64,000 bases of DNA, taken from the NCBI RefSeq assembly GCF_000173355.1, contig NZ_ABXA01000031.1:1-64000 (forward strand), written 5' to 3'. The notes beneath the pieces are model-generated. The model saw only the letters and a program-made list of their open reading frames with translations. It ran no database searches and was not told the DNA's origin. This stretch comes from Anaerococcus hydrogenalis DSM 7454 (GTDB lineage Bacteria; Bacillota; Clostridia; Tissierellales; Peptoniphilaceae). Of this stretch, positions 1 to 8,473 are shown one piece after another (the stretch's first letter is position 1; each line of letters starts with the position of its first letter). A program made the translations under genes and the position numbers.

Positions 1-312
1 AAAGTGTCTGTTGCCATATTTATATTTTAGGTTTGCGTGTCTATCGAATATTATCAGTGAACTTTTTCCTTTTAAATATCCCATTATTTGTGATATTGAG
101 TACTTTGGTGGTATTTCTACCAGCATATGGATATGATCTGGACATAACTCTGCTTCTATTATGTTTATCCCTTTTCTTGAGCATAATTCTCGAAGTATGC
201 TGCCTATGTCTTTTCTTAATTGTCTATATATTTCTTGTCTTCTGTATTTTGGTGCAAATACTATATGGTATTTGTATCTCCAACTTGTATGTGATAAAGT
301 ATTTTTATCCAT
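1..312 (-). CDS. tnpA: IS200/IS605-family transposase TnpA (3' end outside window)
   Basis: Reading the minus strand from the ATG at 312 gives 104 codons that stay open to the window edge, so the C-terminus lies outside. The start is backed by a strong ribosome site (GGAGGT, 5-6 bases upstream). The protein begins MDKNTLSHTSWRYKYHIVFA and continues with PKYRRQ and then CPDHIHMLVEIPPKYSISQI. This is the Y1 HUH-transposase signature (the HIH metal-binding motif). The family (about 130-150 aa) moves single-stranded DNA by 'peel and paste'. The catalytic Tyr and the 3' end cannot be seen. The open plus-strand frames here are shadows. Its position directly behind an orphan T-box is discussed separately. 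Confidence 0.9.
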   Translation of the reverse strand, partial: MDKNTLSHTSWRYKYHIVFAPKYRRQEIYRQLRKDIGSILRELCSRKGINIIEAELCPDHIHMLVEIPPKYSISQIMGYLKGKSSLIIFDRHANLKYKYGNRHF

Positions 313-504: not shown

Positions 505-785
505 AAATTCGCGGTGCCATCCTTTTTATATAAAAATAAATATTTATGTAAAAATAAATAAAATATTACACATCTTAATTCTGATACTAATTTAAAATAA
601 TTTCATATCATATCCCTATAACGTGGGAAGACGGCCTAGACTACTATTTTTCACCCGAGCACTCTCAGATCCATTCGGTTTTAGATCTTTACTTGCTTCC
701 ACCACACACAAGCTCTCTATAAAAGATTTATAAAACTTACTTACCTCTGATCAAAGTTTTATTTTTATTTTCTAACTTATAAGTT
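467..785 (-). promoter_or_regulatory. T-box leader riboswitch, probable Asn specifier, target gene not in window
   Basis: The minus strand carries the hallmarks of a T-box leader. There is an AG-rich AGAGAGC (712-718), GGTGG of the distal stem I loop (699-703), an AGTAG block (641-645), a stem III like CCCACGTTATAGGGA (612-626), and the T-box GGATGGCACCGCG (510-522). A terminator hairpin follows (474-504) with an A/T tract at 467-475. The triplet before AGTAG, at the place occupied by the specifier in known leaders (GAAA-xxx-A), is AAU (646-648), which suggests asparagine; this assignment is tentative. The normal target would be asnA, asnS or a transporter, but the next minus-strand gene is tnpA. 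A consensus promoter lies just upstream. Confidence 0.85.
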
Positions 786-1808
786 GTTTTTATTATATAT
801 CGCTTTATTATCTTTGTCAAATGCCTTATTAAAGTCAATATAAGAGCCCATAAATTCAAAATCCTTAGCATTTTCCTTTAAAAAATCTAATAGAATTCTT
901 ATTTTTTTTTCCCTAATAGAGCCCTCAAAATCAAAATAAAAGATAAATTCAAAGTCAGATCCTGGAATTGGTGATGATTCTAGTTTTGTCATATTTACAT
1001 CCAAAATTTTAAATTTTTCCACTATATCAAACAAGGACCCTGGCCTATCAAGAGCCTTTAATCTTACAGAAATTTGATCTGCCTTATCATAAATTTTTAA
1101 ATCTTTTCCTACAATTATAAATCTGGTGTAATTATTTGAAACATTTTGTATGTTTTCATCTAGAATTTTAAGTCCATAAAGATTTGCACAAAATTTTGAA
1201 CCAATAGCAGCAAGTTTTTTATCATTTTTTTCCTTGACATATTTTGCAGCAAGGGCCGTATTATAATATTCATTTTGGATAAATCCGTGCTCAAGTGTAT
1301 ACTTTCTACATTGACCCAAGGCTTGGGGATGGGAGTAAACTTCTTTTATATCAGAAATTTTTGAAAAAGAATTTCCTAGTAAATAATGCCTTATATCGAG
1401 CTTATAATTTCCTAAAATATAAAAATTTCTCTCAAGCATCAAATTATAAACTTCCTTAACAGATCCATAAGAAGAATTTTCCAAGGGAAGGATTCCAAAT
1501 TGACAAAAATTTTCATCAATCGCATCTAAAATTTGGTCAAATCTCTTAAAATATTTTATATCTCCTTTTGGAAAAACAATATGGCCAACCTGGTCAGCAT
1601 AAGAGCCCTTGGCTCCTCCAAGTGCAATTTTCCCAAAATTCGGAAAATTTTCACTTATAACTTTTTTCTCCAAATATTTAGAAAAATCTCCTGGATATTT
1701 TTTTAATAGGAAGTCCCTGTATTTTTCTTTTAAGATTAAATCTAGTTTTCTTAAATCCTCAACTTCTATATCTTCTTCTAATTCTTTTAACAAATAATCT
1801 TTATTCAT
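777..1808 (-). CDS. pheA: Prephenate dehydratase with C-terminal ACT domain
   Basis: PheA converts prephenate to phenylpyruvate for phenylalanine synthesis. I take the ATG at 1808 (MNKDYLLKELEE), which overlaps the aroC stop by 8 bases (ATGAATAA); an open frame back to 1850 would overlap aroC more. The prephenate dehydratase domain starts near residue 60 (GKIALGGAKGSYADQ in place of the usual GPxGTFS), with the LPLENSSYGSV and NYTRFIIVG (TRF) motifs. A C-terminal ACT domain (ALDRPGSLFDIVEKF, KLESSPIPGSDFEFIFYFD) is the phenylalanine-sensing part. The first 55 residues are charged and helical but lack a clear AroQ chorismate mutase pattern. It is the last gene of the aroF-aroC-pheA operon, which has a Phe-type attenuator in front. 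A consensus promoter lies inside its 3' end. Confidence 0.93.
   Translation of the reverse strand: MNKDYLLKELEEDIEVEDLRKLDLILKEKYRDFLLKKYPGDFSKYLEKKVISENFPNFGKIALGGAKGSYADQVGHIVFPKGDIKYFKRFDQILDAIDENFCQFGILPLENSSYGSVKEVYNLMLERNFYILGNYKLDIRHYLLGNSFSKISDIKEVYSHPQALGQCRKYTLEHGFIQNEYYNTALAAKYVKEKNDKKLAAIGSKFCANLYGLKILDENIQNVSNNYTRFIIVGKDLKIYDKADQISVRLKALDRPGSLFDIVEKFKILDVNMTKLESSPIPGSDFEFIFYFDFEGSIREKKIRILLDFLKENAKDFEFMGSYIDFNKAFDKDNKAIYNKNNL
792..820 (-). promoter_or_regulatory. Sigma-A promoter inside the 3' end of pheA, driving the T-box leader
   Basis: The minus strand reads TTGACA (815-820), 17 bases, TATAAT (792-797), both hexamers matching consensus exactly. The start point would be near 785, just in front of the T-box leader. 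It overlaps the last codons of pheA. Confidence 0.8.
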
Positions 1809-2877
1809 ATAAGTAATCCAATACTGTAAGGGCGAGTATTGCCTCTCCAATCGGCGGAGTTCTTAGGGCAAGGCAAGGATCGTGGCGGCCTTTTATCAAA
1901 AGGTCTTTTTCTTTTTTCTCCCTTATAGAAAATGATTTTTGATTTTTAGAAATTGATGGAGTTGGCTTAAAAATCAAATCAAAAACTACAGGCATGCCAT
2001 TTGTAATTCCTCCTACAATACCTCCTGCATTATTGGTTCTAGTTTTTACCTTACCATTTTCAAGCTCGAATTGGTCGTTGTGGGCTGAACCTCTCATATT
2101 TATAGAATTTAGGCCCTCGCCAAAAGAAATTGCCCTAAGGGCAGGAATTCCAAAAGAAAGATAGGAAATTTTTGCCTCAAAAGAATCAAATAAGGGATCT
2201 CCCAAGCCTTGGGGAATATTTTCTCCAAAAACTTGGCAAATTCCACCAATAGAATCCCCCTCACTACTTATATCTTCCAATAATTTTCTAATTTCCTCTT
2301 CCTTTTTTTCATCCAAAACAGGAATTTCTTTTTGAGAAATTTTTTCCAGTTCATCCATAGGAGGATTTGCTAAATCAAGGTTTTTATCATAAATTCCACC
2401 AATATTTTTAATTCTTGATGCAATTTTTATATTTTTTTCTTCTAAAATTTGTTTTGCAATCCCTCCTGCCAGGCAAAATGGGGCAGTTAGCCTTCCAGAA
2501 AATGGACCTCCCCCATTCATATCCATATCTTTTCCGTATTTTATAAAACTTGTATAGTCAGCGTGAGATGGCCTTGGAATATCGTTTAAATTGTTATAAT
2601 CCTTAGATTTAAAATTATTATTTTTTATAAGGGCTGTTATAGTCTTTGAAATTATTTTATTTTCTCTAAGACCCGAAATGAAAATTGCCCTGTCAGCCTC
2701 TTTTCTTTTTGTAGTAAATCTTGATTTTCCAGGAGCCCTTCTTTGCATAAAGTCATCAAGCTTTACCATATCAATTTCAAAACCTGGTTTTACATTATCA
2801 ATTACCACCCCCATATATTCTTGGTGGCTTGATCCAAAAATAGTAACTTTTAAATTTTTTCCAAAGCTTTGACCCAT
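1801..2877 (-). CDS. aroC: Chorismate synthase
   Basis: At 358 aa this is the usual length. The enzyme makes chorismate from 5-enolpyruvylshikimate-3-phosphate with reduced FMN. Family signatures are visible: GSSHQEYMGVVIDNV at the N-terminus (usual GxSHGxxxGxxI), RRAPGKSRFTTKRKEAD, RPSHADY, GGGPFSGRLTAPFC and RGSAHNDQF, and near the end RTNNAGGIVGGITNGMP and RHDPCLALRTPPIGEA. The motif usually read as SGRxTA-RV is here SGRLTAPF. It starts one base after aroF ends and overlaps pheA by 8 bases, so translation is probably coupled across the operon. No other shikimate genes are in the window. Confidence 0.96.
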   Translation of the reverse strand: MGQSFGKNLKVTIFGSSHQEYMGVVIDNVKPGFEIDMVKLDDFMQRRAPGKSRFTTKRKEADRAIFISGLRENKIISKTITALIKNNNFKSKDYNNLNDIPRPSHADYTSFIKYGKDMDMNGGGPFSGRLTAPFCLAGGIAKQILEEKNIKIASRIKNIGGIYDKNLDLANPPMDELEKISQKEIPVLDEKKEEEIRKLLEDISSEGDSIGGICQVFGENIPQGLGDPLFDSFEAKISYLSFGIPALRAISFGEGLNSINMRGSAHNDQFELENGKVKTRTNNAGGIVGGITNGMPVVFDLIFKPTPSISKNQKSFSIREKKEKDLLIKGRHDPCLALRTPPIGEAILALTVLDYLYE

Positions 2878-2878
2878 T

Positions 2879-3889
2879 TTAGATTTCCTTTCTCAAGTCG
2901 TGGATTTTTTGGCTTGCCTTTAAAATTTTATCAAAATCATCTGGCACTACGCATTGGGCCCCATCAGAAAATGCTTTTGCAGGATTTTCATGAACTTCAA
3001 TCATTAGTCCATCTGCCCCAACAGCTGCTGCAGAAAGGGATAAATCTTTTACATATCTTGAAATTCCTGCTGCGTGAGATGGATCGAGTATTACAGGAAG
3101 GTGAGTTTTTTCGTGTAAGAAAGGAACTGCTGTAACATCTAAAGTATTTCTTGTTGCTGTTTCAAAAGTTCTAATTCCTCTTTCGCAAAGTATAACTTTT
3201 GTATTTCCCCTACTCATAATATATTCTGCCGCCATCAATAATTCTTCATAGGTAGCAGAAAGTCCTCTTTTTAATAAAATTGGTTTATCAGTTTCACCAA
3301 GGGCTTTTAATAAATCAAAATTTTGCATATTTCTTGCCCCAACTTGTAAAATATCTATATCATCAAAATATTTTAATTGGTTAATTTCCATAATTTCTGA
3401 AACAAGGGCAAGGCCTGTCTCTTCTTTTGCCTTTACAAGGTAATCAATAGCTTTTTTTCCGTAACCTTGGAAAGAGTATGGGCTAGTTCTTGGTTTAAAA
3501 GCCCCTCCCCTTAAAATTGTAGCCCCAGATTTTTTAATTTTTTTGGCAATCGATACAACTTGGTCTTCGCTTTCAACAGAACATGGGCCTGCCATATAAA
3601 CAAAAGATCCTCCCCCAATTTGTGTTCCATTATCAAGAGTGATTATTGTATCTTCTGGATGAAATTTTCTATTTGCTTTTTTGTAAGGTTCTTGGATTCT
3701 TATAACATCATCAACGATTTTTTTTGACTTCATATCTTCTTTTGAAACCTTGGAAGTATCTCCCAATAATCCCAAAATGGTTGTGTTTGATCCAACAGCC
3801 TTACTTACCTTAAGATCCATTTCTTCAATTTCTTTTATAAGATCTTGAATTTCATTTTCCTTTGCGCCATTTTTTAATTTAATAATCAT
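2879..3889 (-). CDS. aroF: 3-deoxy-7-phosphoheptulonate (DAHP) synthase, type I-beta with N-terminal regulatory domain
   Basis: This 336-aa enzyme catalyses the first committed step of aromatic amino-acid synthesis, condensing PEP with erythrose-4-phosphate. Residues 1-70 form a ferredoxin-like/ACT-type regulatory domain (MIIKLKNGAKENEIQDLI), as in the Thermotoga-type enzymes inhibited by Phe or Tyr. The barrel domain follows, with MAGPCSVES, GGAFKPRTSPYSFQG, QVGARNMQNFDLLKALG, KPILLKRG, CERGIRTFE and DPSHAAG. It is the first gene of aroF-aroC-pheA. A leader peptide and terminator lie between its promoter and start, so it is likely controlled both by attenuation and by end-product inhibition. 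The enzyme call is certain; the inhibitor is inferred. Confidence 0.95.
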   Translation of the reverse strand: MIIKLKNGAKENEIQDLIKEIEEMDLKVSKAVGSNTTILGLLGDTSKVSKEDMKSKKIVDDVIRIQEPYKKANRKFHPEDTIITLDNGTQIGGGSFVYMAGPCSVESEDQVVSIAKKIKKSGATILRGGAFKPRTSPYSFQGYGKKAIDYLVKAKEETGLALVSEIMEINQLKYFDDIDILQVGARNMQNFDLLKALGETDKPILLKRGLSATYEELLMAAEYIMSRGNTKVILCERGIRTFETATRNTLDVTAVPFLHEKTHLPVILDPSHAAGISRYVKDLSLSAAAVGADGLMIEVHENPAKAFSDGAQCVVPDDFDKILKASQKIHDLRKEI

Positions 3890-3911
3890 AATTTTCTCCT
3901 ATTCTTTTCTA

Positions 3912-3948
3912 AACAACAAAAAAGCTTCTTGGCTATTACCAAGAAGCT
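3912..3948 (-). terminator. Attenuator terminator upstream of aroF
   Basis: On the minus strand AGCTTCTTGG (3923-3932 complement) and CCAAGAAGCT form a perfect 10-bp stem with a 6-base loop, followed by TTTTTTGTTGTTT. It lies 15 bases after the leader-peptide stop and 23 bases before the aroF start. Its loop plus the 3' arm (AATAGCC) is exactly complementary to GGCTATT in the leader coding region, which gives a mutually exclusive antiterminator pairing. Confidence 0.88.
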
Positions 3949-3963
3949 CGATTCTAAAAAAAC

Positions 3964-4065
3964 TTAAAGTGTTTTAGGATTTTGCACATGATAAATAGCC
4001 TTACTTTTTGAAAAAGTAAAGTTAAAAAAGTAAAAGCTAATTTGTGCAAGACTTAAGTTTTTCAT
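3964..4065 (-). CDS. Phe/Tyr-rich leader peptide of the aroF-aroC-pheA attenuator
   Basis: A 33-codon frame starts with ATG at 4065, preceded by AGGAG. Residues 10-18 read SFYFFNFTF, i.e. five Phe and one Tyr in nine codons. The C-terminal half reads SKSKAIYHVQNPKTL. Codons 6-8 (CTT GCA CAA) contain TTGCACA, which pairs perfectly with TGTGCAA in codons 26-28, and TTTTACTTTTT pairs with AAAAAGTAA, so the Phe codons sit in one arm of a long hairpin. The next strand (GGCTATT, codons 23-24) can pair with the terminator. This is the arrangement of classical leader-peptide attenuators such as pheL. It is too short for routine gene calling. The function is inferred from architecture. Confidence 0.85.
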   Translation of the reverse strand: MKNLSLAQISFYFFNFTFSKSKAIYHVQNPKTL

Positions 4066-4096
4066 TTTTTTCTCCTAATGTTTTAAATTTTTTTAT

Positions 4097-4125
4097 ATTA
4101 TAGCACAGAATTTTTCTATAGTAAA
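4097..4125 (-). promoter_or_regulatory. Promoter of the aroF attenuator/operon
   Basis: The minus strand reads TTTACT (4120-4125), a 17-base spacer, and TATAAT (4097-4102). The start point would be near 4090, about 25 bases before the leader-peptide ATG. It overlaps the 3' edge of the upstream pyrophosphatase gene (stop at 4128). Confidence 0.75.
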
Positions 4126-4127
4126 GT

Positions 4128-5783
4128 TTAATTATTATGTGAATTCATAATTGCTTCTGTTAATTTTGGTATAACTTGTTTTTTTCTTGATAAGACACCT
4201 GGTGCTGAAATTGTTCCATTTTTTACCTTATTTCCAAAAACATTTTCTATATCACTTAAATAATTTCCCACAACCAAAAGTTCAGATTTTTGGTTAAAAA
4301 TATCTGTAAGTACAAGAACGAAGGTATTTTCTCCTTTAGAATTTATTTTTTCTCTCATTAAAGATGTTAATTTATCCTTTATTGGATCGAGCTCTTCTGG
4401 ATTCATGGTCATAACTTGGCCAACCCTGATCTTGTCATCCCCAATTGTAAAGGCCTTTACATCCCCATCAATCAAATCTTCAGGAGACCTATTTTTTAAA
4501 CTTGTTCCAGCCTTAAACATCTTTAGGGCAAATTCTTCTGGATTTATATCTGCAATTTTTGTAAGCCTATTTAAAACTCTCTTGTCAGTTTCTGTTGTTG
4601 TTGGTGACCTAAATAAAAGAGTATCAGAAATTATGGCAGCTGAAAGAAGGCCTGCTATTTCTTTTGTAGGTCTTATTCCTGATTCAAAAAACATTTTAGC
4701 AACAATTGTTGCAGTAGAACCTACAGGTTCTGCCCTAAAAAATAGGGGTTGGTTTGTAACAACATTGGCAACTCTGTGGTGGTCAATTATTTCAATAATA
4801 TCTGCATAGTCAATATCATCAACAGATTGGTTTCTTTCGTTGTGGTCAACCAAAATTAATTTTTTCTTTTCATCAGAAATCAAATGGTATCTTGAAATAG
4901 CTCCTAAAACTTTTCCCCTAGCATCTATTATCGGATAAGACCTAAATCTTGTTTTTCCCATAACTTCACGAACAGTATCAACTGTATCTTCTGGTGAAAA
5001 ATAAACCAAGTTTTCTGTACTCATTACATTTGCAATTGGCACTGCCATTGGCAAAAGCCTTGCTGTCATAAAGGTATCATACTCGGTAGAAATAATTGTA
5101 ATATTATTTTCCTCTGCCTCTTTTATTAATTCTTCTTTCATGGTTGAACCATTGGTTAAAATTATTAAAGAAATATTTTTCTTTATCAAATATTCTTGGG
5201 CTTCAAGCCTATTTCCAGTAATTACAAGATCTCCATCCCCAACTAAGGAATTTTTTGGTGAATCTTTTTCATTCATGGCATAAACCATCATTTTTCCTGT
5301 AAAGGCCATTGGATTTTTAGGACTTACTATTAATTTTGCAGATAAGATATCTACAATATTTTCAATCGGTGTGTGGGTTCTTCCAATAATCCTATCATCC
5401 CAAACTTCCATATAGGAATGGGTCAAATTTGAAAGAGATGCAACCCCAATTAATTTTTCATCATCATCCACTACAAAAAGAGAATTTAATTTGTTTTCTT
5501 GGATAATTGACCAGGCATTTCTAATTGGCAAGGATTCATCAACGTTATAAGAATTATCATAGTCTATATCTTTTATTTGAAGTTTCATTGAATCCTTATG
5601 TAAAGGTGCCTTAACTCCAAAATAATCAAGAACAAATTGAGTTTCTTGGTTGACATGTCCAAGCCTAATTGGGATGGCATTTGTGTGACCTAGTCTGTTT
5701 TTTAAATTTGCATAAGCAAGGGCTGAGCAAATAGAGTCAGTATCTGGATTTTTGTGACCTGTAACATAAACTGTTTGTTTCAT
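4128..5783 (-). CDS. ppaC: Manganese-dependent inorganic pyrophosphatase with CBS/DRTGG regulatory insert
   Basis: This family II (DHH) pyrophosphatase hydrolyses PPi to phosphate. The start ATG at 5783 (MKQTVYVTGHKNPDTDS) is preferred over the open ATG at 5801 because AGAGGT precedes it and the upstream start would overlap the previous gene. The 551-aa length fits the CBS-PPase subfamily rather than the 310-aa short form. The order is the DHH N-domain (GHKNPDTDS), a first CBS motif near residue 70, a DRTGG-type insert near 150-240, the second CBS motif near 245-300, the DHH core (LVDHNE, EIIDHHR) and the C-terminal SRKKQ substrate loop. Adenine nucleotides bound by the CBS pair regulate such enzymes (family knowledge). 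It starts 7 bases after the CorC-like gene ends. Confidence 0.93.
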   Translation of the reverse strand: MKQTVYVTGHKNPDTDSICSALAYANLKNRLGHTNAIPIRLGHVNQETQFVLDYFGVKAPLHKDSMKLQIKDIDYDNSYNVDESLPIRNAWSIIQENKLNSLFVVDDDEKLIGVASLSNLTHSYMEVWDDRIIGRTHTPIENIVDILSAKLIVSPKNPMAFTGKMMVYAMNEKDSPKNSLVGDGDLVITGNRLEAQEYLIKKNISLIILTNGSTMKEELIKEAEENNITIISTEYDTFMTARLLPMAVPIANVMSTENLVYFSPEDTVDTVREVMGKTRFRSYPIIDARGKVLGAISRYHLISDEKKKLILVDHNERNQSVDDIDYADIIEIIDHHRVANVVTNQPLFFRAEPVGSTATIVAKMFFESGIRPTKEIAGLLSAAIISDTLLFRSPTTTETDKRVLNRLTKIADINPEEFALKMFKAGTSLKNRSPEDLIDGDVKAFTIGDDKIRVGQVMTMNPEELDPIKDKLTSLMREKINSKGENTFVLVLTDIFNQKSELLVVGNYLSDIENVFGNKVKNGTISAPGVLSRKKQVIPKLTEAIMNSHNN

Positions 5784-7120: not shown

Positions 7121-7147
7121 AAGCCCGAAAAAAACATAGGAGGAAAT

Positions 7148-8473
7148 ATGGAAAAAAATTCTAATCAATCTCTTGCCAACAAGATTTTCAGATTAAAAGA
7201 TCACAAAACTGATGTTAAAACTGAAATCATGGCAGGAATCACAACCTTTATGACTATGTCATATATCTTAGCTGTAAATCCCCAAATTTTAGGAGATGCT
7301 GGTATGGATAAGGGGGCAGTTTTTACTGCAACAATTATTTCATCAATTATCGCAATTTTAATTATGGCTTTTTATGCCAACCTTCCATTTGCACTTGCTC
7401 CTGGAATGGGACTAAACGCATTTTTCACCTATACAGTTGTAATGACTATGGGAAAAAGTTGGGAATTTGCTCTTGCAGCTGTATTTATAGAAGGAATTGT
7501 TTTTATTATTTTATCAATATTTAATGTTCGTGAAGCAATTTTTAATGCTATACCAAGAAGTTTAAAAACAGCAGTATCTGTAGGAATTGGATTATTTATT
7601 GCTCTAATAGGTTTATTAAATTCTACAGTAATTGTAAAAAATGATGTAGGACTTGGACTTGGTAATTTAGTTAGCAAAGAAAGTTTTATATTTTTTATAG
7701 GACTTTTGATTATGGCAGTTTTAACTGCAAGAAAAACAAAGGGAGCTTTATTAATAGGTATTATAATTTCTACAATTATTGCAATCTTTACAGGAGTAAG
7801 CAAGCTTCCAGAAGGCGGAATTATTCAACTACCACCATCACTTAGCCCAATATTTTTAAAACTTGATTTTTCATCAATGCTTTCATTTGAAATGTTTTCT
7901 GTTGTATTTGCATTTTTATTTGTAGACTTATTTGATACTGTAGGAACACTTACAGGAGTTGCAACAAAAGCAAAAATGTTAGATGAAAATGGAGAATTGC
8001 CTAATGCTGGACGTGCACTTTTTGCAGATAGTATTGGTACAACTCTTGGAGCACTTTTGGGAACATCAACAGTAACTACATTTGTAGAAAGTGCAACTGG
8101 AGTTGCAGAAGGAGGAAGAACAGGATTAACTGCTTTATCAGCAGGATTTTGCTTTTTCTTATCAATATTTTTCTATCCACTTATTACAATAATTCCACCA
8201 CAAGCAACTGCAGCAGCTCTTGTAATGGTAGGACTATTTATGATAGATTCAATTGTTGATATAAACTTTGGAGATTTTACAGAATCATTCCCTGCATTTA
8301 TGACAATAATAATGATGCCATTTGCTTATTCAATTGCAGAAGGAATCGCATTTGGAATGATTTCATACGCAAGCGTAAAATTATTAACAGGAAAAGGAAA
8401 AGAAGTTTCACCACTTGTTTATGTACTTGCCTTAGTATTTTTACTAAGATATATATTCCCACTATTTGGATAA
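7148..8473 (+). CDS. pbuG: AzgA-type NCS2 hypoxanthine/guanine permease
   Basis: This 441-aa, highly hydrophobic protein (about 12 or more membrane segments) takes up purine bases by proton symport. Family motifs are clear: AGITTFMTMSYILAVNP near the N-terminus, ALAPGMGLNAFFTYTVV, FVDLFDTVGTLTGVATKA with GxADSIGTTLGALLGTSTVTTFVES, and GGRTGLTAL. AGGAGG lies 6 bases before the ATG. It stands alone between two minus-strand clusters and ends at a shared bidirectional terminator. Together with xpt a few kb away and the nucleoside ABC transporter at 57-62 kb, it points to purine salvage. The exact substrate (guanine, hypoxanthine or adenine) cannot be told from sequence. Confidence 0.92.
   Translation: MEKNSNQSLANKIFRLKDHKTDVKTEIMAGITTFMTMSYILAVNPQILGDAGMDKGAVFTATIISSIIAILIMAFYANLPFALAPGMGLNAFFTYTVVMTMGKSWEFALAAVFIEGIVFIILSIFNVREAIFNAIPRSLKTAVSVGIGLFIALIGLLNSTVIVKNDVGLGLGNLVSKESFIFFIGLLIMAVLTARKTKGALLIGIIISTIIAIFTGVSKLPEGGIIQLPPSLSPIFLKLDFSSMLSFEMFSVVFAFLFVDLFDTVGTLTGVATKAKMLDENGELPNAGRALFADSIGTTLGALLGTSTVTTFVESATGVAEGGRTGLTALSAGFCFFLSIFFYPLITIIPPQATAAALVMVGLFMIDSIVDINFGDFTESFPAFMTIIMMPFAYSIAEGIAFGMISYASVKLLTGKGKEVSPLVYVLALVFLLRYIFPLFG

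Follow-up and report, generated by a model that had tools for sequence, protein, structure and literature searches.

The enteric pheA/pheL attenuator combines a Phe-rich leader peptide with the logic of a 1:2 hairpin, an antiterminator, and a terminator. The T-box (RF00230) is the tRNA-sensing device usually named for Firmicutes, and the usual account assigns leader-peptide attenuation of amino acid genes to Gram-negative bacteria and T-boxes to Firmicutes. Attenuation across phyla has reportedly been the subject of a comparative study by Lopatovskaya and others. Within the Firmicutes, the accessible parts of the literature describe leader-peptide attenuation for his operons (PMC9413887), for hisS and hisZ of bacilli (PMC2965389), and for ilv in Staphylococcus aureus, where the antiterminator of a Leu-rich attenuator is proposed to take up the poly-U (PMC5794164). 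The nearest published case that we found is uORFC-13-1, an open reading frame upstream of aroF known from 24 Acholeplasma and environmental sequences, for which control by the speed of Phe incorporation is proposed; the accessible text also cites an earlier hypothesis of attenuation for Escherichia coli aroF (PMC8632094).

Here we analyze a Phe-rich leader in front of aroF-aroC-pheA of Anaerococcus hydrogenalis DSM 7454, located in a stretch of 64,000 nucleotides (contig NZ_ABXA01000031.1; the window). The element shares with enteric pheA/pheL the Phe-rich leader and the three-pairing logic, and differs from it in that no Rfam leader family matches. In a T-box the RNA itself senses the tRNA, whereas here the ribosome would do so. 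The his, hisS/hisZ, and ilv attenuators of Firmicutes, as described in the accessible texts, are devices of the same class that serve other amino acids and operons. Compared by description only, uORFC-13-1 resembles the window leader in having aroF downstream, a ribosome binding site and start codon, a terminator directly after it, and a U-run that codes for at least one Phe; in the text available it is reported solely from Acholeplasma and environmental sequences (PMC8632094).

Architecture of the locus

The whole feature lies on the minus strand (4125-3915), where promoter, Phe-rich leader, 1:2 hairpin, antiterminator, and terminator are followed by aroF-aroC-pheA. The parts proposed in the initial annotation, namely a promoter, a 33-codon leader, and a terminator ahead of this operon, were all located:

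4097 to 4125, minus strand: promoter, with -35 TTTACT (4125-4120), a 17-base spacer, -10 TATAAT (4102-4097), and TG before the -10
3964 to 4065, minus strand: leader open reading frame of 33 codons, MKNLSLAQISFYFFNFTFSKSKAIYHVQNPKTL, with Shine-Dalgarno (SD) sequence AGGAG (4076-4072) six bases before the ATG
4012 to 4035, minus strand: regulatory codons 11-18 (F Y F F N F T F), read from the sequence; YYYY or YFYYYF in two aroF-tyrA relatives
4011 to 4049, minus strand: region 1, the 5' side of the 1:2 hairpin, TTGCACA plus a U-rich inner arm (from the fold and the cognate-pairing test)
3981 to 4009, minus strand: region 2 side of the 1:2 hairpin, AAAAAGTAAGGCTATTTATCATGTGCAAA (from the fold, conservation, and the cognate-pairing test)
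3987 to 4000, minus strand: antiterminator left strand, GGCTATTTATCATG, inside region 2
3931 to 3943, minus strand: antiterminator right strand, CTTGGTAATAGCC, comprising the terminator 5' arm, loop, and first 3'-arm bases
3915 to 3949, minus strand: intrinsic terminator, with a 10-bp stem AGCTTCTTGG/CCAAGAAGCT (3948-3923) and a T-rich tail
2879 to 3889, minus strand: aroF, DAHP synthase with an N-terminal ferredoxin-like domain, SD AGGAG at 3900-3896
1801 to 2877, minus strand: aroC, chorismate synthase (NCBIfam, Pfam)
777 to 1808, minus strand: pheA, prephenate dehydratase, start taken as the ATG at 1808 (the open reading frame tool starts at a TTG at 1850)

Transcription would start near 4090, judging from the promoter, and the leader transcript would then be about 175 bases long. 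The arrangement TTTACT-17-TATAAT recurs in seven other pheA-type Anaerococcus loci (L024-L030), and TATAAT in both tyrA-type loci. Codons 11-18 of the predicted translation include six Phe or Tyr, a cluster of end-product codons in a short, SD-preceded frame; an SD-preceded frame with six aromatics in eight codons arose in only 2 of 5,000 dinucleotide shuffles of the same 350 bases. The leader stop codon lies 3' of region 2, which corrects the earlier reading. The leader RNA folds at -41.9 kcal/mol, compared to -28.0 (standard deviation, 3.6) in 200 shuffles (z, -3.9). The terminator stem is followed by five T, its tail ends 25 bases upstream of aroF, and it is kept between leader and first structural gene in nine aligned leaders. 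Between 3500 and 4500, one terminator-like site was found, against 0.4 expected from shuffles.

The genes aroF, aroC, and pheA are closely spaced in that order (NCBIfam and Pfam), and AroF is 88 to 94% identical to its counterparts in named Anaerococcus relatives. PheA has an ACT-like stretch that falls below the Pfam cut-off. The initial annotation had also given AroF a regulatory domain, and residues 1-67 are the ferredoxin-like domain PF18152 (Pfam), which is presumably regulatory. As this domain is also found in a solved AroF relative (1rzm/3pg9, full-length sequence match), enzyme feedback is a plausible second layer of control beside the attenuator.

Alternative pairings and their co-variation

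The mutually exclusive pairings that had been read from the window by eye are all present. TTGCACA (4049-4043) pairs with TGTGCAA (3988-3982), the U-rich stretch pairs with AAAAAGTAA (4009-4001), and GGCTATT (4000-3994) pairs with AATAGCC (3937-3931), in competition with the 10-bp terminator stem. The last of these is a real core that was drawn too short: the antiterminator extends to about 13 pairs (GGCTATTTATCATG with CTTGGTAATAGCC) rather than 7.

This greater length matters for compensatory change, which holds for the longer pairing and fails for the 7-base core. GGCTATT is invariant in 10 Anaerococcus leaders, whereas AATAGCC is lost in A. porci, A. vaginalis PH9, and both tyrA-type loci; in each of these, different bases give a duplex that is about as strong. 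Differing loops (TAATA, TAGATT, TAAAT, and ATTA) keep 12 to 13 pairs with region 2, at -12.2 to -13.4 kcal/mol. The duplex reaches -13.2 kcal/mol in the window, -13.4 in A. porci (loop TAGATT), and -12.2 in A. vaginalis PH9 (TAAAT), and random loops did as well in 40, 291, and 144 of 5,000 draws, respectively. In the two tyrA-type leaders, region 2 is GGCTATTTCTGG and the terminator is CCTGGATTAGCC; random loops were as good in 600 of 5,000 draws, not a significant result, so their loops alone prove little. Across nine aligned leaders, AGT-AAG-GCT-ATT and GTG-CAA-AAT show zero synonymous changes, which points to RNA pairing. RNAalifold on nine leaders retains both the inner hairpin and the terminator, with both sides changed in at least one sequence for 3 of 20 pairs. 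In A. ihuae and A. vaginalis PH9, the 1:2 stem is interrupted at single bases. Because region 2 does not vary within the pheA clade, the evidence for co-variation there comes from the loops and from other genera.

In a 14 x 14 matrix (14 of 18 leaders, with close Anaerococcus left out and region 2 of L291 set by position rather than by motif), antiterminator duplexes averaged -14.47 kcal/mol between cognate partners and -10.05 when swapped, and 1:2 stems averaged -19.10 and -14.46. For antiterminator and 1:2 stem alike, none of 20,000 permutations, which keep row and column make-up but not phylogeny, was as low as the cognate partners. The cognate terminator was the best of its row for 3 of 14 leaders and among the best three for 10 of 14, with ranks 5 to 8 in L275-L278.

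Shuffle tests of single leaders gave a weaker signal for mutual exclusivity than did the cognate pairing and the fold states. Against shuffled controls, 6 of the 14 family leaders reached P ≤ 0.05 for the antiterminator (first 3' bases included) and 11 of 14 for the 1:2 stem. When transcripts were cut before the terminator 3' arm, antiterminators of eight Anaerococcus loci showed no excess over shuffled spacers (fractions 0.20 to 0.53). The same pair count over all 82 loci, relatives not collapsed, gave a mean of 11.6 pairs in stalled leaders and 9.1 in shuffled spacers, with 29 of 82 at ≤0.05. Duplex energies including the first 3' bases of the terminator were then used besides the pair count. 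Across the 36 testable leader clusters of 39 (named and class sets), both pairings were stronger than in shuffled controls: the 1:2 stem had a mean z of -2.1 (18/36 at P ≤ 0.05) and the antiterminator a mean z of -2.2 (22/36).

Folding of the predicted switch

A stalled ribosome was mimicked by omitting from the fold every transcript base as far as 14 bases beyond where the A-site codon begins. With the ribosome at an aromatic codon and the transcript ending 16 to 18 bases into the terminator, all nine leaders folded gave 9.4 to 13.3 expected antiterminator pairs. This number was 0.0 when no ribosome was placed and did not exceed 0.7 when one stood at the stop codon, with 1:2 pairs forming instead. 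In the weakest of the tyrA-type stalled states, the antiterminator fell to 1.6 to 2.7 pairs at 22 bases into the terminator. The full-length transcript favors the terminator in nearly all stalled states (the exceptions are codons 13 and 14 of A. senegalensis), so the switch must be kinetic: a complete 3' arm tips the balance to the terminator, and in the model the antiterminator would have to form earlier and hold for the length of the pause.

The leader stop lies 25 to 34 bases past the start of region 2 in the nine folded leaders. In trpL the stop is placed otherwise, and relative to enteric pheA/pheL the folding predicts for leaders of the window type a shut-off in which the 1:2 hairpin re-forms behind the ribosome.

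These folds suggest the following course of events. With ample Phe-tRNA, or with an untranslated leader, region 1 would pair with region 2 and block the antiterminator, and the hairpin at 3948-3923 would end transcription ahead of aroF. When Phe is short, a ribosome would stall in codons 11-18, cover region 1, and free region 2. The latter could then pair with the 5' arm, loop, and first 3' bases of the terminator while RNA polymerase is still making that terminator, and transcription would continue into aroF-aroC-pheA.

Conservation in Anaerococcus and other Peptoniphilaceae

The initial annotation had suggested looking for a Phe-rich leader and terminator upstream of aroF in relatives, and both are found. 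A DAHP synthase match occurs in 14 of 31 genomes of the genus, and 10 have a full-length aroF orthologue. All 10 of these loci have leader, SD, and terminator, down to 65 to 66% AroF identity. Eight of them, including the window, combine the core SFYFFNFTF or a close form with the pheA operon. The two distant loci precede aroF-tyrA-aroB and have the cores AYYYYLTSLF (L017) and AYFYYYFTSIF (L018, the same as L031, where aroA is next). As the whole leader of L031 contains 5 Phe and 4 Tyr and is Tyr-rich in its core only, the shift from Phe to Tyr there concerns the core. Before DAHP synthase paralogues with another N-terminus, no aromatic leader was found at four Anaerococcus loci (L019-L021 and L023); L022 is without a usable start.

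In the window's genome, tyrA-aroB-aroA is separate from aroF, and the 3.8 kb examined there contain no leader-like open reading frame. An apparent interruption of this tyrA by a TAA was rejected, as the TAA stands at the end of the open frame and is read as the gene's own stop. In L294 (window's genome, G000:C10), around 3310-3800, AroA matches two open frames (3310-3688 and 3605-3800), where L295 and L296 have one; this is either a broken gene or an assembly error. In L031, positions 2513-2645 match the Streptococcus small RNA family SpR18 (RF02446) with 88 bits (cut-off, 60), in an Anaerococcus genome.

Across the family, a match was present in 60 of 130 genomes. Among 19 aroF loci of other genera that are full-length or nearly so, nine have a recognizable leader homologue (eight by automatic rule, and L283 by eye, as it resembles L284), nine have none, and one is cut by a contig end. 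These leaders are built from AQxYYF, FYFT, KAxLGC, and relatives, and their terminators differ (CCCGATTAGCC, CCCCGAAAGCC, CCCAAAAA, and GCAGATTAACTTC), with region 2 changing along with them. The exact motif AAGGCTATTTN{2,8}TGTGCAAAA occurs in 8 of 130 family genomes, exclusively Anaerococcus. The covariance model R1 matches 28 of 130 at E ≤ 1; outside the genus, the matches in G085 and G072 were inspected at the site and the others via aroF only. L278 (G127) carries, between leader and aroF, two near-copies of the terminator in tandem, as if duplicated.

Breadth across Clostridia and Negativicutes

Leaders were called by a rule requiring an SD, 8 to 45 codons, and at least 4 aromatics in 8. 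Such a leader precedes 46 of 77 named aroF loci, compared to 2.7% of dinucleotide shuffles, and the rule applied to other open reading frames of the named loci gave 3 of 563. The 77, which include 8 Anaerococcus, are what remained of 80 loci after 3 with fewer than 250 upstream bases were dropped; these loci come from Anaerococcus, Veillonella, Acetobacterium, Ruminococcus, and many Clostridia metagenome-assembled genomes (MAGs). The evidence for Negativicutes consists of seven Veillonella and one Veillonellaceae MAG.

In the class draw, 112 of 157 genomes have a DAHP synthase enzyme. Among the matches listed, 42 of 105 class-sampled aroF upstream regions have a leader, and 39 of 105 a leader with a following terminator; a leader alone was found in 2.4% of their shuffles. 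The 105 regions comprise 80 loci plus 25 of the 28 with L142-L169, from 150 matches listed, and near-identical genomes (e.g., L184-L186) are counted separately. The sample leans to higher similarity, as part of the low-scoring tail was left out by choice, along with two genus matches, partial or fused frames, and contig ends. Several leaders share builds such as LFAAEYYYYYFF and ICAAN.

Rfam T-boxes occur in 2 of 40 leader-negative upstream regions (40 of the 63 in the class sample), both on the aroF strand. This is a lower bound, as only about 500 bases were searched in each and the Rfam cut-off passes just 10 of 17 T-box matches in the window's genome. In 8 of the 63 leader-negative regions, another open frame ends within 60 bases, so control may sit further up. 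The element had at first been called unusual on the ground that Firmicutes use T-boxes. Leader-plus-terminator arrangements at 39 of 105 loci, T-boxes at 2 of 40, the published Firmicute attenuators, and the proposed case at aroF of Acholeplasma speak against that view.

It is likely that, across Clostridia and in at least Veillonella among Negativicutes, the first shikimate enzyme is controlled at the RNA level mainly by attenuation through aromatic leader peptides. The leaders would form an old, fast-changing family in which a mix of Phe, Tyr, and Trp codons is tuned to operon end products (Tyr with tyrA, Phe with pheA) and both RNA stems co-evolve, with T-boxes the exception for aroF.

Codon choice and operon content

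The mean Tyr share was 0.24 in leaders of aroF-pheA operons (4 clusters) and 0.48 in those of aroF-tyrA operons (20 clusters; Mann-Whitney P = 0.018), with one mixed pheA/tyrA cluster (L155, L029, L030, and L031) of the 39 left out and cluster L045/L084 classed as pheA through L084 alone. The 15 other leader clusters averaged 0.41. That codon choice follows the operon, Phe with pheA and more Tyr with tyrA, is suggestive only, with four pheA clusters behind it.

Leaders of Veillonella (L032, L034, and L036-L040) and Acetobacterium (L052, L058, and L083) mix Tyr, Phe, and Trp (KQYFYWFF; YYYINSQSYWFFSFGYF), a composition that would fit sensing of all three amino acids. Short, almost purely Tyr leaders precede aroF at L074, L075, L088, L090, and L096 (ARYAKYYYVLY type; YYYYALY in L096), where the locus DNA examined gave no seed match to tyrA, pheA, aroA, aroB, or aroC. 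The two strongest matches among control open reading frames (L086, around 2239; L103, around 3016) are aromatic-rich leaders themselves, and that of L086 precedes a second DAHP synthase.

Discussion

We conclude that the window element is very probably a transcription attenuator of the classical, ribosome-mediated type, and that it senses how much charged tRNA-Phe and, to a smaller part, tRNA-Tyr is available. Conservation, cognate pairing, and folding of the predicted RNAs give good support to the Phe attenuation first proposed for this locus. The anatomy, its conservation, the co-variation of both stems between species, and the in silico switch are direct observations on the genomes and their folds; from them we infer stalling by uncharged tRNA, its timing, and its effects on expression.

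Three other explanations were weighed. The leader could encode an arrest peptide, with free Phe or another small molecule, rather than uncharged tRNA, sensed in the ribosome tunnel (as in TnaC). The part of the peptide after the aromatic codons is conserved, as SKAIxxVQN in Anaerococcus and KAxLGC in other genera, but in Anaerococcus this part coincides with region 2, which is fixed at the nucleotide level. The aromatic run, moreover, varies in order and in Phe/Tyr identity, and its Tyr/Phe balance leans with operon content, both of which argue against arrest and leave this explanation quite improbable. Still less probable is that a T-box, riboswitch, or protein-binding leader operates here beside a fortuitous open reading frame. 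The window's genome has 17 T-box matches, 10 of them above cut-off and one downstream of pheA (488-763), but no Rfam family reaches cut-off in 3880-4130, where the best weak match is a PyrR site (31 bits; cut-off, 54) and RF00230 is absent both at cut-off and up to E 5. Rfam 15 at curated cut-offs likewise places no family over the leader in the window, 16 distant loci, or 11 relatives, and the conservation of frame and aromatic codons argues against a fortuitous frame. Equally improbable is the reading of the hairpin as a mere 3' terminator of the upstream pyrophosphatase gene, which ends at 4128, 179 bases ahead of it, with the short frame incidental, given the promoter conserved between the two in pheA-type relatives, the leader kept in L031 despite other long upstream frames (ilvB/ilvN-like by eye), and the leader-then-terminator order at 39 of 105 class-sampled loci among the matches listed.

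The T-box downstream of pheA is on the minus strand, and behind it comes an IS200-type Y1 transposase (1-312, minus strand) that runs off the contig. In A. senegalensis (L024), the gene after the T-box at 7130-7390 lies at 7443 and encodes a tryptophan transporter (TrpP). Thus, in the window, T-box and trpP seem to have been separated by an insertion, unless this is an assembly edge.

In the literature searched, largely open-access papers, we found no leader-peptide attenuator of aromatic genes described for Clostridia or Negativicutes. The kind of attenuator proposed here is already known; what would surprise a specialist is its distribution and the Phe/Tyr difference between related leaders. 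If the leaders work as predicted, much of the Clostridia would control the synthesis of aromatic amino acids through the translation of tiny unannotated genes, and these natural differences would open a direct test of how specifier codons co-evolve with operon content.
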